From Aeromicrobium massiliense JC14 (lineage in GTDB: Bacteria > Actinomycetota > Actinomycetes > Propionibacteriales > Nocardioidaceae): 64,000 bases of DNA. This document shows positions 2,584 through 16,979 of the stretch, in pieces. The stretch is taken from contig NZ_HE978636.1 in the NCBI RefSeq assembly GCF_000312105.1, positions 878,841 to 942,840 on the forward strand, in the 5' to 3' direction. The position numbers and the translations under genes are program-made. Under the pieces are notes generated by a model that worked only from the letters and a program-made list of their open reading frames with translations, made no database searches and was not told where the DNA came from. Positions within the stretch are counted from its first letter, which is position 1. The number at the start of each line of letters is the position of its first letter.

Positions 2584-2701
2584 GACTCGTCGCGCGGCCC
2601 CACGGCGGCTTGTGTACGTTGTGCCCCGTGATCTCGCGGGGGCGGGTCGTCCCACCCTCCGCTCGGTCCGCCGCACCCCGACGCGTCGAGAGGTCCCCTG
2701 C

Positions 2702-3361
2702 ATGGCTCCGTCGAGCACGACCCAGTCAGCTCCGTCCCGCCTCCCCTCCACCCGGGAGCGGCGTCCTGCCCTGATCGCCCTGGCGATCGTGCTGATCGTC
2801 GGTGGCGCGCTCGCGTCCGGATGGCTGGCGCTGCAGTCCGGTGACCGGGCCTACTTCCTGCAGGTTTCCGCCGACGTCGCGCAGGGCGAGGACATCACGC
2901 CCGACAAGCTCGAGCGCGTCAGCCTGCCCAAGGGCTTCGACGGCGGCGTGGCTGCCGACGACGAGGGCGAGGTCGTGGGCCGCCCGGCCGCCACGCGCCT
3001 CCTCGCCGGCACCGTGCTCAACCCCGCCATGGTCTCGGACGACGCCGGCCTCGCCCAGGACACGACGCAGCTCGCGGTGCCGGTCACGTCGGGCGCCCTC
3101 GAGCTCGGCACCGGCGACCAGGTCGTGCTCGACATCGGTGCGACGGACGGCAACCGCGCGTCCGTGCTCGCCGAGGTCGTCTCCGAGCCGACCGAGACGG
3201 GCGACGGCGGCTTCGGCGCGTCCAGCGCGAGCCAGATGGTCGTCTCGGTGCACCTGTCGTGCCTGTCGGCGGTCTCCCAGGGTGTCGAGGACTCCAGCAT
3301 CGTCATCGCCCGTGTCGGCGCGGTCGACGAGTCCCTCGTCCGTCGCACCTGCGGGGCCTGA
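2702..3361 (+). CDS. cpaB: SAF-domain pilus assembly protein (CpaB/RcpC-like)
   Basis: 219 residues if started at the ATG after GAGAGG (2689-2694). The open frame extends upstream, but the first hydrophobic segment (ALIALAIVLIVGGALASGWLA, about residues 24-44) fits a signal anchor near this start. Residues about 55-125 carry an SAF-like domain, with the pattern ADVAQGEDITPDKLE followed by GRPAATRLLAGTVLN. In Tad/Flp pilus systems CpaB/RcpC proteins carry this domain and act outside the membrane. The gene is the first of the Tad run and is 2 bp from the ATPase gene that follows. It is short compared with proteobacterial CpaB, as expected in a monoderm without an outer-membrane secretin. Confidence 0.75.
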   Translation: MAPSSTTQSAPSRLPSTRERRPALIALAIVLIVGGALASGWLALQSGDRAYFLQVSADVAQGEDITPDKLERVSLPKGFDGGVAADDEGEVVGRPAATRLLAGTVLNPAMVSDDAGLAQDTTQLAVPVTSGALELGTGDQVVLDIGATDGNRASVLAEVVSEPTETGDGGFGASSASQMVVSVHLSCLSAVSQGVEDSSIVIARVGAVDESLVRRTCGA

Positions 3362-3363
3362 CC

Positions 3364-4179
3364 GTGGCGCTCATCGCGGTCGCCTCGGCGAAGGGCTCGC
3401 CGGGGGCCACCACCGCGTCGCTCCTGATCGGTGCCCTGTGGCCGCGCCAGGTCGTCGTCGCCGAGTGCGACCCGGCCGGCGGCGACGTCGCCCACCGCAT
3501 GCCCGGGCCGGACGGACGTCCGCTCGACCCGCAGCAGGGGATGCTCAGCCTGGTCGCGGCCGGCCGCAAGTCGCTGCACGCCGGCCTGCTGGCGGCCCAC
3601 ACCCAGCCCATCGTCGGCGGCCTGGACGTCCTCTGCGGCGTCATGGTCCCCGAGCAGGCCGGTGCCCTCGCCCAGCAGTGGGAGCGGCTCGCCGATCTGT
3701 TCGCCCGGCTGCCCGGCACCGACGTCGTCGCCGACCTCGGCCGCATCGGCGCGGTCACGCCGCAGAACGTCCTGCTCGCCTCGGCCTCGGCGATCGTGCT
3801 GGTCGTCGGCACCGTCCCCAGCGAGGTCGTGCACCTGCGCGAGCGGCTGCGGGCCGTCCACGAGGCCCACGGCGGCCCGGTGGGCGCGCCGATCCACGTC
3901 GTGGTCGTCGCCGCCCCGAAGCGCTCGCGCACGGTCAAGGAGGTGCGCGAGGCGATCGAGCGCTCCGAGGTGCCCGTCGCCGGCGTGCACCACCTCGCCC
4001 ACGACCCCAGCGGCGCCGCGTTCTTCCTCGGCCAGGTGAGCGGCAGCCCCGCGCGCACCGCGCTCGTCCGCTCGGCGCGCCCGATCGTCGACGAGCTGGC
4101 CGCCGCCACCGCCGTCTTCCACGTCGGCGCCGAGGAGCCCGCCGGCGACGAGCCGGCCTCCGGAGAGGTGCCCGCATGA
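3364..4179 (+). CDS. TadZ/CpaE-like MinD-family ATPase
   Basis: 271 residues from a GTG start 2 bp after the SAF gene stop. The N-terminus carries a deviant Walker A, KGSPGATT (residues 10-17), with the signature lysine kept but the P-loop lysine replaced by alanine. A DPAGGD stretch follows, as in MinD-like proteins. TadZ/CpaE proteins position the Tad machinery at the cell pole, and many have atypical P-loops, so a localisation role is inferred from the family and position. The receiver-like N-terminal domain found in some TadZ proteins is absent. The gene overlaps cpaF by ATGA, so translation is coupled. The upstream open frame (from 3259) overlaps the SAF gene and was not used. Confidence 0.72.
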   Translation: MALIAVASAKGSPGATTASLLIGALWPRQVVVAECDPAGGDVAHRMPGPDGRPLDPQQGMLSLVAAGRKSLHAGLLAAHTQPIVGGLDVLCGVMVPEQAGALAQQWERLADLFARLPGTDVVADLGRIGAVTPQNVLLASASAIVLVVGTVPSEVVHLRERLRAVHEAHGGPVGAPIHVVVVAAPKRSRTVKEVREAIERSEVPVAGVHHLAHDPSGAAFFLGQVSGSPARTALVRSARPIVDELAAATAVFHVGAEEPAGDEPASGEVPA

Positions 4180-5483
4180 TCGACCACGACCTCGTCCGGC
4201 AGCTGCGCACGCAGGTCGCCGACCGGCTCAACGAGCAGCGCCGCCGCGACCAGCTCGCCGGGGTGACGCCGATGAGCGCTGACGACGAGCGCGAGTACGC
4301 TCGCTCGCTCATCGTCCAGGTGCTCGAGGACCACGCCCGCTACGAGATCGCCGAGGGACGCACCCCGATCGCGCCCGACGACGAGGCCGAGGTCGCCACG
4401 GCGATCCACTCGGCGCTGTTCGGCGTCGGACGCCTGCAGCCGCTGCTGGAGGACCCCGAGGTCGAGAACGTCGACATCAACGGCTGCGACCACGTGTTCG
4501 TCCAGTACGGCGACGGCCGCGAGGAGCGTCATCCGCCCGTGGCCGAGAGCGACGAGGAGCTGGTCGAGCTCATCCAGGTGCTGGCCGCCCACACCGGCCT
4601 GTCGAGCCGGCCGTTCGACTCGGCCAACCCGCAGCTCGACCTGCGCCTGCCCGACGGCTCGCGCCTCTCGGCCGTCATGAACGTCTGCGCCCGGCCCTCG
4701 ATCTCGATCCGCAAGGCCCGCCTGGGCCGGGTGTTCCTCGACGAGCTGATCGCCAACGGCACGGTGTCGCCGGACGTCGGCTCGTTCCTCAAGGCCGCCG
4801 TGGCCGCGCGCAAGAACATCATGATCGCCGGTGCGACGAACGCCGGAAAGACGACGATGCTGCGCGCGCTGGCCAACGAGATCCCGGCGAACGAGCGCCT
4901 CATCACGGTCGAGCGCGCGCTCGAGCTGGGGCTCGGCGAGCACGCCGACCTGCACCCGAACGTCGTCTCGTTCGAGGAGCGGCTGCCCAACTCCGAGGGC
5001 CTGGGCGGCGTCTCGATGGCCGAGCTCGTCCGCCGCTCGCTGCGCATGAACCCGTCGCGGGTGATCGTCGGCGAGGTGCTCGGCGACGAGATCGTCACGA
5101 TGCTCAACGCGATGAGCCAGGGCAACGACGGCTCGCTGTCGACCATCCACGCGAACTCCTCGCTCGAGGTGTTCAACCGCATCGGCACCTATGCCATCCA
5201 GAGCCGCGAGCGGCTGCCGCTCGAGGCCACGACGATGCTGATCTCGGGCGCGCTCGACTTCGTCGTCTTCCTGCGCAAGCACAACGACCACGCCACCGGT
5301 GGCGGCCAGGCCCGTGTGGTCGAGAGCATCCGCGAGGTGGTCGGCCACGACCAGCAGGTGCTGTCGAGCGAGGTGTTCGCCCCGGACGCGTCCGGCCGCG
5401 CGCAGCCGCACGCCCCGATCGCCTGCATCGCCGAGCTCCAGGAGCACGGCTACGAGCCGCTCGTGCACGGTCGGTGGGCCTGA
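4176..5483 (+). CDS. cpaF: Tad pilus assembly ATPase CpaF/TadA
   Basis: 435 residues. A helical N-terminal domain (1-110) precedes the secretion ATPase core. The Walker A is GATNAGKTT (219-227, catalytic lysine 225), followed by an Asp-box region (ANERLITVERALELGL), a Walker B-like RVIVGEVLGDE and a His-box GNDGSLSTIHANS. These are the hallmarks of VirB11/CpaF ATPases that power Flp pilus assembly from the cytoplasm. The Walker A differs slightly from the common GGTGSGKTT form but keeps Lys-Thr. The Walker-B-like motif ends GEV-LG rather than the common GEVRG. The start overlaps the preceding ATPase gene (ATGA) and the stop overlaps tadB (TGATG). Confidence 0.93.
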   Translation: MIDHDLVRQLRTQVADRLNEQRRRDQLAGVTPMSADDEREYARSLIVQVLEDHARYEIAEGRTPIAPDDEAEVATAIHSALFGVGRLQPLLEDPEVENVDINGCDHVFVQYGDGREERHPPVAESDEELVELIQVLAAHTGLSSRPFDSANPQLDLRLPDGSRLSAVMNVCARPSISIRKARLGRVFLDELIANGTVSPDVGSFLKAAVAARKNIMIAGATNAGKTTMLRALANEIPANERLITVERALELGLGEHADLHPNVVSFEERLPNSEGLGGVSMAELVRRSLRMNPSRVIVGEVLGDEIVTMLNAMSQGNDGSLSTIHANSSLEVFNRIGTYAIQSRERLPLEATTMLISGALDFVVFLRKHNDHATGGGQARVVESIREVVGHDQQVLSSEVFAPDASGRAQPHAPIACIAELQEHGYEPLVHGRWA

Positions 5484-6364
5484 TGTTCGAGGAGCTGCGC
5501 ATCCCGCTGTTCGTGACGGCCGGTGCCGTCACGGGCCTGGGCCTCGCGCTGCTCGTGCTCGCGCTCAGCGGGCTGCCGGTCCGTGAGCGGGCGTCCGCCA
5601 CCCCCGGACGCCGCCGCTCGGTCGCCGGGTCGCAGCGCCGGCTCAAGCAGCTCGCGGCCGGCGTCGGCGTCTTCGTGGTGGTGCTCGTCGTGACGCGCTG
5701 GTTCGTGCTGGCCGCGGCGCTGGGTGTCGTGGTCGCGTTCTGGGACCGGGCCTTCGGCGGCGCGCGCCAGGAGCGTGACGCGATCAACCGGGTCGAGGGC
5801 CTGGCCACCTGGATCGAGGCGCTGCGCGACACCATCGCCGGCGCCGTCGGCCTGGAGCAGGCGATCCCGGCCACCGCGGTCAACGCGGCCCCGTCGATCC
5901 GGCCCTCGCTCAACCTGCTCGTCGACCGGCTGCGCGTGCGCGAGCCGCTGCCCGACGCGCTCATGAAGTTCGCCCGCGACCTGGACGACCCGTCGGCCGA
6001 CCTCGTCGTCGCGGCCCTCATCCTCAACTCGCGGCTGCGCGGCCCCGGCCTGCGCGACGTGCTGAGCGCGCTGGCCAACTCCGCCCGCGACGAGCTCGAC
6101 GTGCGCCGCCGGGTCGAGAGCAGCCGCCGGTCCACCCGGCGCAGCGTCCAGGTCGTCGTCGGCGTCATCGTCACGGTCGCCGCGGGCCTGGTGCTGTTCA
6201 ACCCGGCGTACGTCTCGCCCTACGGCACGTTCGAGGGCCAGCTCGTGCTGGCCGGCGTGCTCGCCCTGTTCGCCGGCAGCGTGTTCTGGATGCGCAAGCT
6301 GTCCGGCGTGGAGGAGCCCGAGCGCTTCCTCATCGGCTCGCTCGACACGAGGGGGACGGCATGA
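5483..6364 (+). CDS. tadB: Tad pilus inner-membrane platform protein TadB
   Basis: 293 residues with a T2SSF-type layout: two N-terminal transmembrane segments (about 10-32 and 57-85), a cytoplasmic helical domain (about 95-215, including GLATWIEALRDTIAGAVGLEQA and a DPSADLVVAALIL stretch) and two C-terminal helices. The GLEQAI and conserved AAP patterns are typical of TadB. With TadC it forms the membrane platform that the CpaF ATPase drives. The ATG at 5483 shares a base with the cpaF stop, and the stop overlaps the tadC start, so the platform genes are translationally coupled. Confidence 0.85.
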   Translation: MFEELRIPLFVTAGAVTGLGLALLVLALSGLPVRERASATPGRRRSVAGSQRRLKQLAAGVGVFVVVLVVTRWFVLAAALGVVVAFWDRAFGGARQERDAINRVEGLATWIEALRDTIAGAVGLEQAIPATAVNAAPSIRPSLNLLVDRLRVREPLPDALMKFARDLDDPSADLVVAALILNSRLRGPGLRDVLSALANSARDELDVRRRVESSRRSTRRSVQVVVGVIVTVAAGLVLFNPAYVSPYGTFEGQLVLAGVLALFAGSVFWMRKLSGVEEPERFLIGSLDTRGTA

Positions 6365-7254
6365 CCTGGTCGCTGCTCGCCGGGGCCGCCGTCGGTCTCG
6401 GCATCGTCCTGCTCGTGCACGCGCTGTCGGCTCCCGTGCCGGGCGTCTCGGCCACGCTGAGCCGCCTGGACGCCGGGCGCCGCGGACGCGCGCTCACGAC
6501 GACCGCCGCCGACGAGGGACAGGGACGCGTCGAGCGCTTGCGCGGCTCGATCGGCGAGCGGCTCGAGCAGGAGGCCACGTCCCGCGGCTGGCAGCTGCGC
6601 TCGACCCGCGCCGACCTCGCGGTCATGAACCGCTCGATGGCCGTGCACCTGGGCACCAAGGCGCTGCTCGCCCTCGGCGCGCTCGTGTGGTTCCCGGTCG
6701 TCTGGCTGCTGTTCGGCTTCGGCGTCGGCCCGGTGCCGCTCGTCGTGACCCTCGCGGCCACGGCGCTCGCGTTCATGCTCCCGGACCTGCAGCTCAAGCG
6801 TGAGGCCGAGGTGCGTCGCCGCGACTTCCGCCACGTCGTCGGCTCGTTCCTGGACCTGGTCGCGATGAACCTGGCCGGTGGCCGCGGCCTGCCCGAGGCG
6901 CTCATGGCCGCGTCCTCCATCGGCGACCACTGGGCCATGGTGCGGCTGCGCCAGGCGCTGTCCAACGCCCGCATCATGGGCTGGACGCCGTGGGAGGGCA
7001 TTGCGCGGCTCGGTCGCGAGCTCGGCGTCGACGAGCTGCGCGACCTCGCCTCGGCGCTGGCCCTGGCCGGCGACGAGGGCGCCAAGATCCGCATGTCCCT
7101 CATGTCGCGCAGCGAGAGCATGCGCCGCAAGGAGCTCGTCGACGTCGAGGGCTCGGCCGGCGAGAGCTCGCAGTCGATGCTCATGGCCCAGCTGCTCATG
7201 TGCGTCACGTTCCTGGTCTTCCTCGCCTACCCGGCCATCAGCCAGCTCAGCTAG
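6361..7254 (+). CDS. tadC: Tad pilus inner-membrane platform protein TadC
   Basis: 297 residues, a T2SSF-domain protein and the partner of TadB. A first transmembrane segment lies at 3-22, a helical pair at about 100-140, the cytoplasmic T2SSF domain follows (VGSFLDLVAMNLAGGRGLPEAL is typical of the family), and a C-terminal membrane helix (LLMCVTFLVFLAYPAISQLS) ends the protein. The ATGA overlap with tadB shows coupling. It is followed after 37 bp by the pilin gene, which has its own strong ribosome binding site, consistent with higher expression of the pilin. Confidence 0.85.
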   Translation: MTWSLLAGAAVGLGIVLLVHALSAPVPGVSATLSRLDAGRRGRALTTTAADEGQGRVERLRGSIGERLEQEATSRGWQLRSTRADLAVMNRSMAVHLGTKALLALGALVWFPVVWLLFGFGVGPVPLVVTLAATALAFMLPDLQLKREAEVRRRDFRHVVGSFLDLVAMNLAGGRGLPEALMAASSIGDHWAMVRLRQALSNARIMGWTPWEGIARLGRELGVDELRDLASALALAGDEGAKIRMSLMSRSESMRRKELVDVEGSAGESSQSMLMAQLLMCVTFLVFLAYPAISQLS

Positions 7255-7291: not shown

Positions 7292-7510
7292 ATGAACAAC
7301 CCCGTCGTCCTGTACGCGACCGCGCTCATCACCCTGGTGCGCGGCCGCGCCGAGCAGGCCCGCCGCGAGGGCCGCAACGAGCTGGGCGCCTCGGCCATCG
7401 AGTGGGCGATCATCTCGGCCGTCGTCGTGGTGCTCGCGCTGGCCATCGCCGCCGCGATCCGCGGGGTCGTCGACAACAACATCGGCGACATCGAGCAGGG
7501 CGCGAACTAG
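7292..7510 (+). CDS. flp: Flp-type pilin (class III prepilin)
   Basis: 72 residues, the probable major pilus subunit. A charged leader of 32 residues ends in Gly32, and the mature start would be ASAIEW, with Glu37 at position +5, the classic type IV prepilin peptidase signature. A hydrophobic helix (AIISAVVVVLALAIAAAI) follows, as in Flp pilins. The leader is longer than in most Flp pilins. A strong ribosome binding site, GGAGGAA (about 7280-7286), lies 5-6 bp before the ATG and sets this start; the longer open frame upstream overlaps tadC and is a shadow. No prepilin peptidase gene is in this window, so it must be encoded elsewhere. Confidence 0.85.
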   Translation: MNNPVVLYATALITLVRGRAEQARREGRNELGASAIEWAIISAVVVVLALAIAAAIRGVVDNNIGDIEQGAN

Positions 7511-7526
7511 CGCTCACCGACGACCG

Positions 7527-7952
7527 ATGACCGTGGGGACGAGCCGGGGACGGCGCGACGATCGAGGCACCAGCGCGCTGGAGTTCTCGATCATCGCGCC
7601 GATCTTCCTGCTGCTCGTCTTCACGATCATCGAGGGCGGGCTGTACCTGCACGCCCGCAACACGGCGCAGTCCGCCGCCCGCGAGGGCGTCTCGTACCTG
7701 CGCCTGGCCGGCTCGAACTCGGACCCGGCGTCGTTCACCGCCGCCGCCGAGCAGGTCACCGAGGGGTACGCGGCCAAGCTCGGCCGGCTCAAGAACGTGA
7801 CGGCCGCCGGCACGATCGACACCGACACCGGACGCGTCACGATGCTCGTGGTCGGCGACGTCGTGCTGCCGGTGGGGGGCACGGTGCAGGTCGAGCAGAC
7901 GTCCACGGCCACCCTCGAGCAGTTCCGCGGCGACCTGCGGGAGGGCCCGTGA
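7527..7952 (+). CDS. tadE: TadE-like pseudopilin 1
   Basis: 141 residues. A short Arg-rich leader ends in Gly14, followed by TSALEF with Glu19 at +5, and a hydrophobic helix (SIIAPIFLLLVFTIIEGGLY). This is the TadE pattern of a prepilin-like leader plus an ALEF/AP motif. The rest is a small extracytoplasmic domain with an ARNTAQSAAREG stretch that is common in TadE proteins. TadE minor pilins are needed for Tad pilus assembly. The gene is 16 bp after flp and overlaps the next gene by GTGA. Confidence 0.85.
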   Translation: MTVGTSRGRRDDRGTSALEFSIIAPIFLLLVFTIIEGGLYLHARNTAQSAAREGVSYLRLAGSNSDPASFTAAAEQVTEGYAAKLGRLKNVTAAGTIDTDTGRVTMLVVGDVVLPVGGTVQVEQTSTATLEQFRGDLREGP

Positions 7953-8392
7953 GGCGCGACGAGCGGGCGACCGCGAGCCTCGAGCTCGTCATCGTGGCGC
8001 CGTTCCTGCTGCTGCTGCTCATGCTGATCATCGCGTTCGGCCGTTTCGCGCAGACCGAGAACCTGGTCGACCAGGCCTCGCGCGACGCGGCCCGCGCCGC
8101 CACGGCCCAGAACGTCCGGGCCCAGGTGAAGCCCGTGGCCGACGACGTCGTCGCCCAGGTCATGGACGACGCGCCCGCGTCGTGCCGCGACTCGGCCCAG
8201 GCCGACCCGCCGTCGCTCACCGCGGGGGCCTTCGAGCTGCCCGACCCGAACGCGCCCGCGCAGGTCGAGTCGGTCACCGTCACCGTCCGCTGCACGCTCG
8301 ACCTCAGCGACCTGGCCGGCCTGCCACTGCGCTCGGTGCAGCTCGAGCGCACCTTCACCAGCCCGCTCGACCGCTACCGGGGCTACCAGTGA
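7949..8392 (+). CDS. TadE-like pseudopilin 2
   Basis: 147 residues starting with GTG in a GTGA overlap with the first tadE. The leader MRRDERATASLELVIVAPF has the Glu-Leu and AP positions of TadE, but an alanine takes the place of the usual glycine before the predicted cleavage site. After the hydrophobic helix, a QASRDAARAAT stretch matches the conserved region after the TadE helix. Two cysteines (in PASCRDS and TVRCTLD) could form a disulfide in the exported domain. It is probably a second minor pilin; the unusual cleavage site means processing may differ. Confidence 0.8.
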   Translation: MRRDERATASLELVIVAPFLLLLLMLIIAFGRFAQTENLVDQASRDAARAATAQNVRAQVKPVADDVVAQVMDDAPASCRDSAQADPPSLTAGAFELPDPNAPAQVESVTVTVRCTLDLSDLAGLPLRSVQLERTFTSPLDRYRGYQ

Positions 8393-9117
8393 GGCGCCGG
8401 GACGAGCGCGGGTCGATCACCCCGTTCGTCGTCATCGTCGCGCTCGGCATCATCCTGCTGGCGGGCCTGGTGATCGACGGCGGCCGCCAGCTCAACGCCA
8501 AGGGGCGCGCCGTCGCCTACGCCCAGGAAGCCGCCCGTGCCGGGGCCCAGGCGGTGGACGTGAGCGACCCGCGACTGGACCTCAACCGGGCGCAGGCGCT
8601 CGACACCGCGCAGGAGTACTGCCGCCAGGCGATGGCTGCCGACGGACAGCTCGTGCGCTGCGAGCCCAGCCTGCGCACCGTCAACGACGGCGATCTCGGC
8701 TCCTTCCTCGCCGTCCAGGTCGACGCCCAGGTCGAGATCGACGCGATCCTGCTCGACATGGTGCGCAGCCCGACCATGATGGCGTCCGGCGCGGCGATGG
8801 CGCGTCCGGTCAGCGGCATCAGCGAGGCCGACAGCGGCAAGGTCTCGACCCTCGGGCCCCCGTCCGTCGCGCCGCCGGAGGAGGGCACGGTGGGCACCGC
8901 CCCGTTGCCGACGAACGTCGAGGTGACCCCGTGCGAGCCGTCGCCGAGCCCCACGCCGACGCCGACCGAGACCCCGACCGACGACGAGGACGACCCCAAG
9001 GACGACGACGACCCGAAGGACGAGGACGAGCCGACGAAGACCCCCTCGCCCTCGCCGACGCCGTCCCCGACGCCCACCGTCGACTACTGCAAGACGCCGG
9101 GACCGGGCGGTGAGTGA
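8389..9117 (+). CDS. TadG-like pilus/secreted protein with acidic Pro-Thr-rich tail
   Basis: 242 residues from a GTG in a GTGA overlap with the second tadE. The N-terminus (RDERGSITPFVVIVALGIILLAGLVIDGGRQL) is typical of TadG-like/Flp assembly proteins: GS near the start, one hydrophobic helix, then a VIDGGR motif. After a small domain with two cysteines, residues about 190-236 are low-complexity repeats of Pro-Ser-Pro-Thr and Asp-Asp-Glu-Asp, which look like an extended cell-surface linker. A last cysteine pair flanks this tail. The usual TadG von Willebrand-like domain is absent, so it is a short version of the family. Confidence 0.75.
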   Translation: MRRRDERGSITPFVVIVALGIILLAGLVIDGGRQLNAKGRAVAYAQEAARAGAQAVDVSDPRLDLNRAQALDTAQEYCRQAMAADGQLVRCEPSLRTVNDGDLGSFLAVQVDAQVEIDAILLDMVRSPTMMASGAAMARPVSGISEADSGKVSTLGPPSVAPPEEGTVGTAPLPTNVEVTPCEPSPSPTPTPTETPTDDEDDPKDDDDPKDEDEPTKTPSPSPTPSPTPTVDYCKTPGPGGE

Positions 9118-9164
9118 CGGAGGGCGGCCGTTCCGTGGACTGGGCGTTCCCGCGGACCCGCCGG

Positions 9165-9170
9165 TAGGCT
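9165..9170 (+). promoter_or_regulatory. Candidate -10 box for the lipoprotein/secreted gene pair
   Basis: TAGGCT lies about 41 bp before the start of the lipoprotein gene, in the 93 bp gap after the TadG-like gene, and fits the actinobacterial -10 pattern TANNNT. No clear -35 was found. It suggests that the genes from 9211 onward can be transcribed separately from the Tad operon. Confidence 0.4.
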
Positions 9171-9210
9171 GGGCCGCGCTCGTGAGCCAGGGACGTCCGG
9201 GGGGACACGC

Positions 9211-9789
9211 ATGAGACATCGCGCACCGCGGGTCGCCGCCGTCGCCGTGCTCGCCCTTCTCGCCGCCGGCTGCGGCGGTGACGACGAGCCGGCCGCCGAG
9301 GCCGGCACCCCGTCGCCGAGTGCCTCGGCCACCACGTCGGCCGCGCGGGTCGAGCAGCCCGACACCCTGGGCGTCGACGTCCGCGTGACCAACCTCGACG
9401 CGCACGCGGGCGACCCGGCCGTCGCCCGCTGGCGGCTGCTCAACGCCGCGATCGTGCGCACCACGAACGACCGCACCGTGGCGCCCGCCCTGCGCCAGGT
9501 CGCGAACGACGCCGTCGTGCGCGACTTCGCTCAGCGCCTCGCCCCCGGATGGAAGGACGGTTGGACCGTGCCGAACAGCGTCGTCCTGCGTATCGAGGAC
9601 TCCCAGCCCGGCCGCGTGATCGGCTGCCTGTGGTCGCCCTCGCAGGCCTACCGCGGCAAGGACGGCAAGTCGGTCGGCACCGCCGACCAGTCCTGGCTGC
9701 GCATCGTCTCGACCTACTCCGGCACCGGCGACGCACTGAGGTTCGGCTCGTTCGAGGTCGACGGCACCTGCGCGGGGGAGGCCCCGTGA
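9211..9789 (+). CDS. Lipoprotein of unknown function next to the Tad locus
   Basis: 192 residues. A basic N-terminus and hydrophobic core end in the lipobox LLAAGC (Cys21), followed by GGDDE and a Thr/Ser/Ala/Pro linker to about residue 48, so it should be anchored on the outer face of the membrane. The remaining domain has no motif I recognise. It contains a run DAHAGDPAVARWRLLNAAIV, and two further cysteines (GCLWSPSQ and GTCAGE) that may pair. Its stop overlaps the next gene by GTGA, so the two are coupled. Position between TadG and the LysM/SARP gene suggests a role with the pilus or cell wall. That is inference only. Confidence 0.65.
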   Translation: MRHRAPRVAAVAVLALLAAGCGGDDEPAAEAGTPSPSASATTSAARVEQPDTLGVDVRVTNLDAHAGDPAVARWRLLNAAIVRTTNDRTVAPALRQVANDAVVRDFAQRLAPGWKDGWTVPNSVVLRIEDSQPGRVIGCLWSPSQAYRGKDGKSVGTADQSWLRIVSTYSGTGDALRFGSFEVDGTCAGEAP

Positions 9790-10865
9790 GGCGCGCCCTG
9801 GCCGCCGCCCTGGCGGGTGTGCTCGGCGCGTCGGTCCTGAGCCTGCTCGGCGCCTCGCCGGCGGCCGCGTGCACACCGGCCCAGATGCCCTGCAGCCCGT
9901 CGGGCTCGGGCGGCGGCGGGCCGTCCACGCCGGTCGAGGGCAGCAGCGGCACCCGGTACGACAACTACACGTCGACCACCCAGACCTGCTCGGTCTACGC
10001 CAGCGGCAACGGCATGGGCTCGTACTGCGTCTCGCTGGGCGGGGGCAGCGCCTTGAAGACGCTGCGTGAGATGTACGGCGGCCAGGAGTTCCAGCAGTGC
10101 CGCTACAGCGACCTGCCGCCGGGCATCCAGGCCCCGTTCAACACGCGGCCGTCCGAGGGCCGCTACATGCTCGTGCGCTGCCTGCGCGGCGTCGACTTCG
10201 ACACCTACAGCGGCGGTCGCAACCGCAGCCTCTCGCTGGAGATCCGCTTCGTGGAGTTCGGCGAGGATGTCCGCGACCAAGGTGGCGCCCTGAACGACTT
10301 CCTGTGGGGCCGCATCAGCCAGGACACCTTCCTGCCGGTGCCCTTCCTGCAGCCCAAGCCGAACCCGACCCCGATCGTTGGCGTGCCGACCTACCTGACG
10401 TTCCAGTGGCGCAACCCGGTGAACGAGCAGGTCGTCGCGCAGGGACCGTTCGCGGGACGCGCCGGCGTCGGTGGCCCGTACATCGAGATCGAGACGCCCA
10501 CTGGACTGACCATGGTCGCGCAGGCCACCGAGGTGCGGCTCGACCCGAACCAGGAGGGCATCGACCCGGTGACGTGCCGGCCCACCACGCCGTACGTCGT
10601 CGGTGTCGCGCCGAAGGACCAGCCCGCCGACGCCTGCAGCATCACGTTCCCTCGCTCGTCGGCCTCCGCCCGCAAGTTCGCCACCCGCGACATCCCCTCG
10701 AACCTGCCGGACTCGTTCTACGCGGACGTGCAGGTCGACTGGCGCGTCCAGTACGGCGAGGGCGACCAGCTGCAGGATCTCGGCGACTTCACCATGCGGC
10801 TCAAGCAGCCCATCCCGGTGCAGGAGGTCCAGGCGCCGAACCAGCCGCCCGCCGTCATCTACTGA
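9786..10865 (+). CDS. Secreted Cys-containing protein of unknown function
   Basis: 359 residues from a GTG in a GTGA overlap with the lipoprotein gene. A signal peptide is clear (RRALAAALAGVLGASVLSLLGASPAAA), with cleavage near ASPAAA-CT. The mature protein begins with cysteines, a glycine-serine linker, then a domain with several cysteines (TCSVYASGN, YCVSLGG, QCRYSD, VRCLRG) and a later TYLTFQWRNP stretch that looks beta-rich. I do not recognise the family. It is coupled to the lipoprotein and is followed by the LysM/SARP membrane protein, a neighbourhood that suggests a cell-surface role. Confidence 0.65.
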   Translation: MRRALAAALAGVLGASVLSLLGASPAAACTPAQMPCSPSGSGGGGPSTPVEGSSGTRYDNYTSTTQTCSVYASGNGMGSYCVSLGGGSALKTLREMYGGQEFQQCRYSDLPPGIQAPFNTRPSEGRYMLVRCLRGVDFDTYSGGRNRSLSLEIRFVEFGEDVRDQGGALNDFLWGRISQDTFLPVPFLQPKPNPTPIVGVPTYLTFQWRNPVNEQVVAQGPFAGRAGVGGPYIEIETPTGLTMVAQATEVRLDPNQEGIDPVTCRPTTPYVVGVAPKDQPADACSITFPRSSASARKFATRDIPSNLPDSFYADVQVDWRVQYGEGDQLQDLGDFTMRLKQPIPVQEVQAPNQPPAVIY

Positions 10866-10921
10866 CGTCCGGCAGGCGGGCGCCAGACCCGCTCCACTAG
10901 GCGCGGGCCGTGCCCACCGAC

Positions 10922-10927
10922 TACCTT
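10922..10927 (+). promoter_or_regulatory. Candidate -10 box for the LysM/SARP gene
   Basis: TACCTT in the 109 bp gap before the ATG at 10975 matches TANNNT. A purine-rich AGGGGGAA at 10964-10971 serves as ribosome binding site for the downstream gene. No -35 element was identified. Confidence 0.35.
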
Positions 10928-10974
10928 GGGACGGTCCGCCAGGGCGGGCATGTCGTGACATTCCAGGGGGAACG

Positions 10975-13755
10975 ATGACGTCGACGCTCCAGCGTCCCAA
11001 TGGCGACCGACTGCCGACGATCACCAAGGTGCCCAGCCGCGGCGCCCAGGTCGCGAAGGGCCTCGCCGCCCTCGTCGGCACCGCGCTCATCGTCGTGGGC
11101 GTCCCGCTCGCGCTGCTGGCCGCCTTCGGCACCCCGTGGCCGGACGAGGCCCCGTCGCTGCAGTGGCTCACCGAGCCGACCACCACCGAGGCGCTCATGG
11201 GTGTCCTCGCCGCGGTCGTCTGGCTGGCCTGGGCCCACTTCGTGGTCTGCCTGGTCGTGGAGGCCGTGGCCGAGCGCAAGCGCCGCGGGCTCGCGCCCCA
11301 GGTCCCCGGCGGCGGCATCGGCACGCAGACCCTCGCCCGCCGGCTCGTCGCGACCATCGTCCTCATCGCCGGCACCTCGGCGGCGGGCATGTCGACCGCC
11401 ACCGCCGCCACGTCCGGTGGCGCCGAGCAGGACGTCCAGATCCGGCCCGCGACCACCCTGGTGCAGACGGCGACGCCGGACGCCGGCGACGAGGCGCGGC
11501 CCGACGGCGACACGCTCGAGCGCGCGACCAAGGCGGACGTCCAGCAGGGCGTCACGACCTACTACGAGGTCAAGCCGCCGAACAACCGCAACTACGACAC
11601 GCTCTGGGACATGGCCGAGCGATACCTCGGCGACGGCTTCCGCTACAAGGAGATCTGGGAGCTCAACAAGAACGTCGAGCAGGCCGACGGGCGCGTGCTC
11701 AAGAGCGCCGACCTCATCCACCCCGGCTGGGTCATGAAGATGCCCAACGACGCCAAGGGGCCCGGCCTCAAGGTCGTCGACCACGCGGCCGAGTCCACCC
11801 CGGCCCCCGCGCCGGCACCGGCACCCGCCGACGTCCAGACCGGAGCGGAGGCGTCCAGCGACGCCACCGCCGACGCCGGTGCCATCGGCGGGACGGCCGC
11901 CGACCAGCAGGAGGGCCGCTGGGGCCCGGTCTACGGCGTCGCCGGCGGCCTCGCCCTGGCCGGTGCCGTCATCGGCCTGCGCCGCCGCCGCGCGTCCGCG
12001 CCCACCGGCGAGCGCTGGGCCCGCCGTCAGGCCTCTCCCACGCCCGACCCGCAGGGTCCGGCGCCGGTGCCGCCCGGCCCGGGTGGCCGGCTCCGCCAGG
12101 AGGGCGACGTCGAGACCGCCGGCTGGCTGGACTCGGTGCTCCGCTCCTGGAGCGACGGCCACGGCGCTCTCGTCCCCGCCCGCGTCTCGGTCAGCGAGTC
12201 CGGTGCCGCGGTGGCGTTCGACCAGCCGCCCGCGCGTCCGGTGCCCGCCGGCTGGACGGCTCGCAGCGAGACGGTGTGGGCCGTCGACCGTGACGGCGCA
12301 CCCGCCGGCACCGGTGCGGCGCCCGCGCCCGGCCTGGTCGTCGTCGGCCGCCGTGACGACGGCAGCCTGCTGCTCGCCGACCCCGAGGGCGTCGCCGGCG
12401 TGCTCGCCCTCGACGGCACCGACCACGTCGCCCGCGGCCTGGCGGTGAGCATGGCCGTCGACACCGCCACCCACCCGTGGGCGGACGACCGCGCCGTGAC
12501 CCTCGTCGGGTTCGCCGACGACCTCTCGGCCGTGTCGCCGGCCCTGCGCCACAGCGACGACCTCGGCCGCGTGCTGGAGTCGCTGCAGAACGTCGCGCGC
12601 TACCAGCGCGACGCGTGCCGCTCCGCCGGTGCCGCGACTGCTCGCGAGGCCCGCGCCGCCGGTGGCGCCGCGCGCTGGACCTACCACCTCGTCGTCTGCT
12701 CCGGCGTCCCGTCGTCCGACGAGCTCGCCACCCTGACCACGCTGGCCGCCGACCCGCAGGTCGCGCTGGGCGTCGTCGTCGTCGGTGCCGTGCCCGACGC
12801 CGCGATGCGGCTCAGCGCCCGCCACGACGGACGCATCGTCTCGCCCGTGCACGGCGTCGACGTGGCCGCGCAGGTGCTCGAGCCCGCGGCCGCCCGCGAC
12901 CTCGCCGCCCTCTACCGTCCGGTGGCCACCGGTGGCTCGGTCAATCTCGACGACCTCGTCGACGTGCTGGTCGATGAGCAGGCGGCGAGCGCGGCCGAGG
13001 ACGCGACCGTGCGGCTCGACGTGCTCGGCCCGGTGCAGGTCTCCGCGCCCGGCCCGGTCGACGAGGACCGTCGCCCGCTGCTCACCGAGCTGCTCGCGCT
13101 GCTGGCGCTCAATCCGGCCGGCGTCCACGTCAACCTCGTCTCGGCCGCCCTGTGGCCGCGCGGCGTGGACGACGCGGTCCGCGACGACACGCTCGTCCGC
13201 CTCGGCACCTGGCTCGGGGCCACGGCCGACGGCACGCCCGTGCTGCGGCAGGAGGCGGGCATCTGCTCGCTGACGCCGGGCGCGGTCCGGCTCGACTGGG
13301 ACGCGTTCCGCGACGCGCTCAACCGGGCGGCCAACGACGGCGCCCAGCGCGAGGCGCACCTGCGCTCGGCGCTGTCGCTCGTCCGCGGCCAGGCGTTCGA
13401 GGACGTCCCGGCCTCGCGCTACACCTGGCTGGACTCGATGACCGTCGAGGACGACATCGCCCTGGCGGTGACGCTGAGCGTCCACGCCCACGCCGAGGCG
13501 GCTGCCGCCCGCGGCGACGAGTCGACCGCCGTGGAGGCGCTGGCGCACGGACTGGAGCTCATGCCCGGCAGCGAGGAGCTGTGGCGGGCGCGGCTGCGCC
13601 TGGCGCACCACTTCGGCGACCGCGACGCGCTCGAGCGCGTGGCCCGCGAGATGTACGCCGCGCTGGCCGAGCACGGCTCGCTCGCCGGACCGTCGGGCCA
13701 GACCGACAGCCTGGTCGACGAGCTGCTGCCCGGGTTCCGCTCGCGCGTCGCCTGA
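10975..13755 (+). CDS. Membrane protein with extracytoplasmic LysM-like domain and C-terminal SARP/BTAD regulatory domain
   Basis: 926 residues, start set by AGGGGGAA just before the ATG. Three hydrophobic segments lie at about 28-52, 74-97 and 122-142. A LysM-like stretch follows at about 192-260 (TLWDMAERYLGDGFRYKEIWELN ending HPGWVMKMP), then an Ala/Pro linker and a fourth helix at about 318-336 followed by RRRR. The positive-inside rule puts the LysM region outside and the C-terminal 590 residues inside. Residues about 681-780 have the pattern of the SARP/AfsR winged helix (LDVLGPVQV, LLTELLALLALNP, ALWP), but it is degenerate. Residues about 780-926 are a BTAD-like helical domain. LysM binds peptidoglycan and BTAD/SARP proteins regulate transcription, so it could couple wall sensing to gene control. 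This is inferred. Confidence 0.72.
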   Translation: MTSTLQRPNGDRLPTITKVPSRGAQVAKGLAALVGTALIVVGVPLALLAAFGTPWPDEAPSLQWLTEPTTTEALMGVLAAVVWLAWAHFVVCLVVEAVAERKRRGLAPQVPGGGIGTQTLARRLVATIVLIAGTSAAGMSTATAATSGGAEQDVQIRPATTLVQTATPDAGDEARPDGDTLERATKADVQQGVTTYYEVKPPNNRNYDTLWDMAERYLGDGFRYKEIWELNKNVEQADGRVLKSADLIHPGWVMKMPNDAKGPGLKVVDHAAESTPAPAPAPAPADVQTGAEASSDATADAGAIGGTAADQQEGRWGPVYGVAGGLALAGAVIGLRRRRASAPTGERWARRQASPTPDPQGPAPVPPGPGGRLRQEGDVETAGWLDSVLRSWSDGHGALVPARVSVSESGAAVAFDQPPARPVPAGWTARSETVWAVDRDGAPAGTGAAPAPGLVVVGRRDDGSLLLADPEGVAGVLALDGTDHVARGLAVSMAVDTATHPWADDRAVTLVGFADDLSAVSPALRHSDDLGRVLESLQNVARYQRDACRSAGAATAREARAAGGAARWTYHLVVCSGVPSSDELATLTTLAADPQVALGVVVVGAVPDAAMRLSARHDGRIVSPVHGVDVAAQVLEPAAARDLAALYRPVATGGSVNLDDLVDVLVDEQAASAAEDATVRLDVLGPVQVSAPGPVDEDRRPLLTELLALLALNPAGVHVNLVSAALWPRGVDDAVRDDTLVRLGTWLGATADGTPVLRQEAGICSLTPGAVRLDWDAFRDALNRAANDGAQREAHLRSALSLVRGQAFEDVPASRYTWLDSMTVEDDIALAVTLSVHAHAEAAAARGDESTAVEALAHGLELMPGSEELWRARLRLAHHFGDRDALERVAREMYAALAEHGSLAGPSGQTDSLVDELLPGFRSRVA

Positions 13756-13766
13756 GCCAGCGGCCG

Positions 13767-13799
13767 AGCGCCCCGCGTCCCACCGGGACGCGGGGCGCT
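13767..13799 (+). terminator. Perfect 15-bp hairpin after the LysM/SARP gene
   Basis: AGCGCCCCGCGTCCC (13767-13781) pairs perfectly with GGGACGCGGGGCGCT (13785-13799) around the 3-nt loop ACC. It starts 11 bp after the stop codon. There is no T-tract, as is common for GC-rich actinobacterial terminators. Confidence 0.75.
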
Positions 13800-13842
13800 G
13801 TCGTGCGTGAACCCCGACACCCCGGCCCCGCTCCCCACCGCA

Positions 13843-13897
13843 GGGCGGTGAGTGGTCCACCACGGTGACGGCTCGGGTGGTGGATGACTCACCGCCC
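13843..13897. repeat. Dispersed palindromic repeat, copy A (sub-type TCCACCAC)
   Basis: Two 21-nt arms (13843-13863 and 13877-13897) match as inverted repeats with two mismatches around a 13-nt loop. The outer part GGGCGGTGAGT is shared with the repeats at 36799-36880 and 53400-53513, while the inner part of the stem (TCCACCAC) differs. It sits in the 218 bp gap between convergent genes, between two perfect hairpins. It is likely a mobile or REP-like intergenic element. Confidence 0.55.
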
Positions 13898-13927
13898 AGC
13901 CACGCCGTCGGGGCGCCGCAGGGACGA

Positions 13928-13962
13928 CGAAGGGGCGGGACCGTGATGGTCCCGCCCCTTCG
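13928..13962 (-). terminator. Perfect 15-bp hairpin after the iron-sulfur oxidoreductase gene
   Basis: CGAAGGGGCGGGACC (13928-13942) and GGTCCCGCCCCTTCG (13948-13962) form a perfect stem with a 5-nt loop. It lies 11 bp beyond the stop codon of the minus-strand gene and so most likely ends that transcript; as a palindrome it could also act on plus-strand read-through. Confidence 0.75.
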
Positions 13963-13973
13963 TGCGTCGTGCG

Positions 13974-16979
<3,006 letters not shown>

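Follow-up and report, generated by a model that had tools for sequence, protein, structure and literature searches.

A predicted wall-anchored LysM, pseudo-FtsK and SARP-BTAD membrane protein in one sub-lineage of actinobacterial Tad pilus loci

Introduction

The window analysed here, a stretch of 64,000 nucleotides from Aeromicrobium massiliense JC14, carries a gene for a 926-aa LysM, pseudo-FtsK and SARP-BTAD membrane protein (10975..13755, + strand), named LB here, at the end of a Tad pilus locus. The locus raises the question of what a protein that combines a LysM domain with regulator-like parts does beside a pilus machine. The initial annotation had proposed that it could couple wall sensing to gene regulation. 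Domain folds, predicted sides, the missing P-loop lysine, the lost SARP contacts, genetic linkage and co-inheritance were computed for LB.

The description "LysM, BTAD" was tabulated in 2013 for PAGK_2369, in the tad locus of the Cutibacterium acnes plasmid pIMPLE-HL096PA1 (PMC3666418, Table 2), where it stands without functional work. By that tabulated description PAGK_2369 is like LB in having LysM and BTAD in one Tad-locus protein; unlike LB it was labelled TadB, and the table gives it no topology, pseudo-ATPase or function. No functional study of a LysM-BTAD Tad-locus protein was found in the open-licence literature, and a term look-up did not find "LysM" in the searchable text of PMC3244431, PMC9531140 or PMC5696575. 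LysM and BTAD are described as separate domains of eCIS shells in PMC8213781.

Gene layout and Tad locus of the window

LB started with an ATG at 10975, preceded by a G-rich Shine-Dalgarno-like stretch, and stopped at 13755. A chance or overlapping reading frame was ruled out, as the frame was kept in relatives from 92% down to 31% identity. The modules followed in the order three helices, LysM (residues 193-260), helix 4, linker, FtsK/EccC-like domain (447-650), winged helix (679-776) and BTAD (777-915). The initial annotation had read three helices, a LysM, a fourth helix and a winged helix with BTAD in one protein, and all of these were recovered by the structural model, hydropathy, Pfam/NCBIfam and structural alignment; the FtsK/EccC-like pseudo-ATPase had been overlooked. 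The C-terminal model was good (pLDDT 80.5) and the N-terminal model poor overall (pLDDT 58.9), although ten-residue blocks of the LysM portion reached about 70-85. Just 3' of the LB stop the sequence shows a perfect 15-bp inverted repeat with loop ACC (13767..13799, +), the likely end of the transcription unit; it was not listed by the terminator scan, which requires a T run, and neither the sigma-70 nor the terminator scan of 9000-14200 was informative.

LB is encoded in one Tad locus with CpaB, TadZ, TadA, TadB, TadC, pilin and TadE genes, all on the + strand. Domain search identified a CpaB/RcpC-like protein with a SAF domain (2612..3361), TadB (T2SSF; 5474..6364), TadC (T2SSF; 6361..7254), a first (7527..7952) and a second (7949..8392) TadE-like protein and a TadG-like protein (Pfam Tad; 8389..9117), and domain and family search identified the TadA/CpaF ATPase (T2SSE; 4176..5483). 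A TadZ/CpaE-like gene (3361..4179; start codon not fixed) was found by family search and named from its sequence character, and a 72-aa candidate Flp pilin (7292..7510) was recognised by sequence. Between TadG and LB, family search found a small putative lipoprotein (9211..9789) and a putative secreted protein (9549..10865, with its true start after 9549), both recurrent near many LB loci. Neither had Pfam matches, and in some Tad loci of the LB type they stood before CpaB, not after TadG.

Further genes lay close by. A ParA-like gene (1079-2272) was kept just 5' of the tad genes in six related loci (L024, L027, L030, L032, L033 and L034). The genome's only EccD-like gene (PF19053; 90-1076) abutted the Tad locus and was also present in L027. 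About 300 bp before the window lay the gene of an EccC-like 1344-aa protein with three FtsK/SpoIIIE stretches (L124 15666-19697, - strand), and the two form a type VII secretion-like pair beside the pilus locus. A second Tad-type cluster of the same genome (L163; C3: 1-14000) contained TadA, TadB and TadE; CpaB, TadZ and a LysM-BTAD gene were not found in the stretch read there. The single prepilin peptidase (Peptidase_A24) of the genome lay far from the Tad locus, at C3:675374-675703.

Membrane topology and the LysM domain

Transmembrane helices 2 (residues 72-95; 11188..11259, +) and 3 (residues 122-141; 11338..11397, +) were given by model and hydropathy, and helix 1 (residues 30-51; 11062..11127, +) by hydropathy, with a model helix at 22-51. 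The 19-residue hydropathy peaks fell at 30-48, 77-95 and 124-142. Helix 4 (residues 319-338; 11929..11988, +) stayed below the 1.6 hydropathy threshold in the window protein, yet appeared in the model as helix 320-340. The membrane helices in both model and hydropathy ruled out a soluble regulator. Lys and Arg numbered 0 in the loop between helices 1 and 2, 4 in the loop between helices 2 and 3 and 4 in the 30 residues past helix 4. Because of the positive-inside rule applied to these residues, LysM is predicted to be external and the remaining domains cytoplasmic, so that LysM and BTAD would lie on opposite sides of the membrane, as the initial annotation had it.

The extracytoplasmic LysM domain (residues 193-260; 11551..11754, +) was identified from matches below the cut-off in Pfam (13.9 vs 20.9 bits) and NCBIfam (E 1.7e-6, 28.5 bits vs 134), from the family profile and from the model. 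Pfam LysM was detected in 7 of 17 LB family members, and the family profile matched a solved LysM protein (E 8.1e-5); two weak flagellin rows from the profile search of solved structures were taken as chance. Modelled residues 195-259 superposed on the LysM structure 7vcm_B (Z 7.2, rmsd 1.3, 53 residues, 40% identity). Fold and sequence both placed the domain in LysM, although the window protein fell short of the Pfam cut-off. LysM was the most conserved module of LB among 51 complete loci (mean pairwise identity 0.432), the remaining parts ranging from 0.18 to 0.31 (membrane part 0.313, winged helix 0.306, BTAD 0.275, pseudo-ATPase 0.251). One full-length LB (L036) was without LysM.

Pseudo-ATPase domain

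Foldseek and structural alignment assigned residues 447-650 (12313..12924, +) to the FtsK/EccC fold. Over 200 aligned residues the domain superposed on 2ius_A, an FtsK motor, at Z 16.7 and rmsd 2.9, and it matched EccCb1 9jv8 at Z 15.6; it has the motor fold of these ATPases and is unlike them in being a single domain and in missing the P-loop lysine. The place of the P-loop (GTDHVARG, residues 481-488; 12415..12438, +) was without Lys-Ser/Thr by alignment and pattern scan; GxxxxGK[ST] was absent from the window LB, and a lysine followed by Ser/Thr at the aligned place occurred in 0 of 65 full-length LB proteins. The single GxxxxGK[ST] pattern, near residue 402 of the open frame in L105, lay away from that place. 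An active ATPase was ruled out by the missing lysine, and the domain is predicted to be a catalytically dead pseudo-ATPase.

A dead motor domain might regulate a live one: the FtsK-like domain would pair with TadA and tune extension, and BTAD would relay a wall signal. The fold match, the missing lysine (65/65) and the occurrence of LB in one TadA lineage agree with such a role; the fold matched is that of FtsK/EccC, not that of the T2SSE family of TadA, and this role is regarded as quite improbable.

Winged helix, BTAD and DNA contacts

The SARP-type winged helix (residues 679-776; 13009..13302, +) was identified by Foldseek, structural alignment and sequence alignment, and the TPR-type helical BTAD domain (residues 777-915; 13303..13719, +) by Pfam (E 9.1e-6, 26.5 bits vs cut-off 22.1) and structural alignment. 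Residues 677-921 superposed on AfsR (8k60_I; Z 15.8, rmsd 4.7, 226 residues), with the SARP layout of winged helix then BTAD. The structure prediction that the initial annotation had proposed as a check thus showed both a LysM and a SARP fold. A phmmer search of PDB sequences with the winged-helix and BTAD portion of the window protein found no SARP, its top rows being TPR repeat proteins; the link to AfsR therefore rests on fold, not on sequence alone. LB is like the SARP regulators AfsR and EmbR in winged helix and BTAD (Z 15.0-15.8), and unlike them in being a membrane protein, in having lost DNA contacts in the window's clade and in being without a NOD or FHA part.

The DNA contacts listed for AfsR in PMC10936776 are S46, Q48, W74, P79, S80, Q81, R87, T88, S91, R92, R94 and K95, with Q48, W74, P79, T88, R94 and K95 given as highly conserved. 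Winged helices of 14 SARPs were aligned with those of LB proteins from a close (12), a middle (16) and a distant (37) group, these groups being hand-set by relatedness and the close one being the window's clade (Aeromicrobium/Mumia). In the recognition-helix region of the window protein (residues 730-748; 13162..13218, +) the alignment with SARPs showed DNA-contact residues to be lost: the positions of Q48, P79, T88, R94 and K95 were occupied by L, D, D, G and T, and W74 was kept, as it was in every close and middle row. Arg stood at the R92 position of the window protein itself, and several of the conserved contacts, such as T88, varied even across the 14 SARPs. Arg at the R94 position was present in SARPs (14/14), middle (15/16) and distant (34/37) LB and absent from close LB (0/12), and the R87 position held Asp in close (12/12) and middle (14/16) LB. 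Mean net charge of the winged helix was +0.86 in SARPs, -4.67 in close, -3.12 in middle and +0.57 in distant LB (Mann-Whitney vs SARPs, p = 3.8e-5, 6.7e-5 and 0.85, respectively; the rows are related and p overstates their independence). The loss of DNA contacts in LB may represent one or two evolutionary events. The remark of the initial annotation that the winged helix lacks the usual basic pattern was borne out, and the lost contact residues support its suggestion that the winged helix of the window protein may bind a partner, not DNA.

Distant LB proteins kept most SARP DNA-contact residues and look capable of DNA binding, and gene regulation by them is possible. LB could accordingly be pictured as a membrane-bound one-component regulator of the kind of ToxR and CadC, with LysM sensing the wall and the winged helix binding a tad or other promoter. 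Its winged helix-BTAD fold is that of activators, and the 37 distant members have SARP-like charge and mostly R94. The window's clade has lost R94 (12/12), has Asp at the R87 position and is strongly negative in charge, and the LB of one Tad locus (L120) is without the entire cytoplasmic part. AfsR binds direct repeats as two side-by-side protomers in the account of PMC10936776, a mode that would be harder from a membrane. A regulator of this kind is considered unlikely, and wall sensing coupled to gene regulation was unsupported for the window protein, given its lost DNA contacts and the wall half that stands alone in L120.

Distribution, linkage to tad genes and co-inheritance

Relatives of LB occurred in Aeromicrobium, Mumia, a Nocardioides MAG, another Nocardioidaceae MAG and Frankia. 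Of 39 near-relative genomes 26 had a match (E ≤ 0.001), as did 71 of 396 genomes across the phylum; many of these 71 were LysM-only, and the best match reached E ≤ 1e-30 in 29 of the 396. TadE was much commoner (299/396), and LB therefore marks a subset of Tad loci. Seventy-one regions were compared (the window, 13 relatives and 57 chosen places), of which 65 had a full-length LB; a contig-end fragment (L035), LysM-only proteins (L119), a 355-aa protein (L120), a region with no match (L123) and two with weak matches and the LysM part unmatched (L121, L122) were dropped. Places in the phylum outside this sample were weak or LysM-only ones and a few stronger, among them G110, G197, G403 and G415.

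TadA, TadB/C and TadE were found on the LB strand in 55 of the 65 full-length loci; reading the neighbouring DNA added the Streptomyces-like L087, L088 and L090, for 58 of 61 assessable loci with tad genes on that strand. Four loci beginning ≤ 1.3 kb upstream of LB were not assessable (L025, L029, L031, L097). Three were counted as misses: L036 had no tad call in 6.8 kb upstream, where the contig ends; L110 had a TadG-like gene only in the 6.7 kb upstream, where the contig ends; and L107 had LB and a TadG-like gene, with about 26 kb of upstream DNA otherwise free of tad genes. No tad gene lay downstream of LB in any of the 65. The co-occurrence of this architecture with tad genes in actinobacteria and the place of LB at the locus end, both raised by the initial annotation, were thus upheld; the recurrence of LB as a Tad component across actinobacteria and Streptomyces plasmids had escaped it. 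Two further BTAD loci of the window's own genome (L125, L126) had no tad gene in 20 kb.

In L120 a Tad locus carried, at the usual LB place, an LB gene that ended after the membrane and LysM half (9100-10164, 355 aa); the remaining LB parts were not found in that 20-kb stretch. The wall part can therefore stand without the regulator-like part.

Among 72,556 plasmid records, 128 also had an LB relative, and Streptomyces accounted for 110 of these records; pipelines had annotated the plasmid relatives as LysM proteins. In the annotated plasmid loci L127 and L128 LB directly followed the tad genes, as it did by family search in the unannotated L129 (Nonomuraea). Many Streptomyces plasmids, linear ones among them, carried LB-bearing Tad loci.

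A TadA tree parted LB-bearing (64 rows) from LB-free (18 rows) loci by one branch (SH-aLRT 78; a quick tree with long branches). The 20 LB-free loci had been chosen from strong TadE matches in genomes without LB, a choice uninformative on the rate of LB absence in the lineage. Across the 51 complete loci, with shared ancestry uncontrolled, pairwise distances of LB correlated with those of TadZ (r = 0.85) and TadA (r = 0.77), TadB correlated with TadA (r = 0.82), and CpaB with TadA the least (r = 0.55). The joint tracking of LB, TadZ and TadA is read as co-inheritance, not contact. Within actinobacterial Tad loci, LB belongs to the regular gene set of one sub-lineage.

Almost every LB locus with complete flanks contained CpaB, and LB might replace the missing outer-membrane secretin as an alignment or gating part, with LysM positioning a wall pore around CpaB/RcpC. 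In the account of PMC12307814, RcpC forms an alignment complex that is dodecameric, and no wall hydrolase dedicated to the Tad system is on record; both would suit such a part. CpaB tracked TadA least and also occurred in 5 of 20 LB-free loci, and this explanation is held to be very improbable.

A proposed wall-anchored scaffold

For the window protein, holding the pilus machine in place is more probably its task than switching genes. LB is given an even chance of being a structural organiser of the actinobacterial Tad pilus machine, a wall-anchored scaffold working like FimV/HubP. LysM would grip peptidoglycan outside the membrane and four helices would secure the protein within it; the dead FtsK/EccC-like domain, the SARP-derived winged helix and the TPR-type BTAD would offer cytoplasmic docking surfaces, most likely to the TadZ/TadA side, and LB would thereby keep the machine at a fixed wall position. 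The scaffold is favoured because LysM, FtsK/EccC and SARP folds were found together with loss of the P-loop lysine throughout and of DNA contacts in the window's clade, and because LB is linked to tad genes, closes the locus, is best conserved in LysM, tracks TadZ and TadA, follows the split of the TadA tree and is reduced in L120 to its membrane and LysM half.

It is favoured also because FimV and HubP, in the accounts of PMC12918733 and PMC5285504, are LysM-transmembrane-cytoplasmic TPR proteins that organise appendages in proteobacteria. LB is like these polar hubs, which are tied to pili or flagella, in its predicted extracytoplasmic LysM, membrane part and C-terminal cytoplasmic TPR-type domain; it is unlike them in its four helices, SARP-type TPR, pseudo-FtsK domain and actinobacterial occurrence. 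No FimV model was among the NCBIfam matches of LB at E ≤ 1, with which remote kinship is still compatible, and the likeness appears to be one without evident homology. FimV is reported as dispensable for pilus motility in P. putida (PMC12918733), so the analogy is no proof of a pilus role for LB. The scaffold reading is weakened because distant LB keep R94, as a regulator would, and because of the LysM match below the cut-off in the window, the poor N-terminal model, the LysM-free L036, and L107 with its TadG-like gene as the sole tad gene found.

Implications

With a little short of an even chance, one Tad lineage would carry its own wall-anchored hub, with a SARP activator and a dead DNA-pump-type ATPase reused as docking modules and the FimV/HubP plan invented independently; an intermediate with SARP contacts would survive in distant members, perhaps doing both jobs. 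Within the literature searched, three points are apparently new: the pseudo-ATPase, the phylum-wide link to a single Tad sub-lineage and, for one clade, the lost DNA contacts. For annotation of activators by BTAD, the family indicates that such genes need not bind DNA. The Tad sub-lineage that LB marks is also carried by Streptomyces plasmids. Being conserved, placed at the locus end and predicted to bind the wall, LB offers a direct genetic handle on how the Tad pilus is set in the cell wall.
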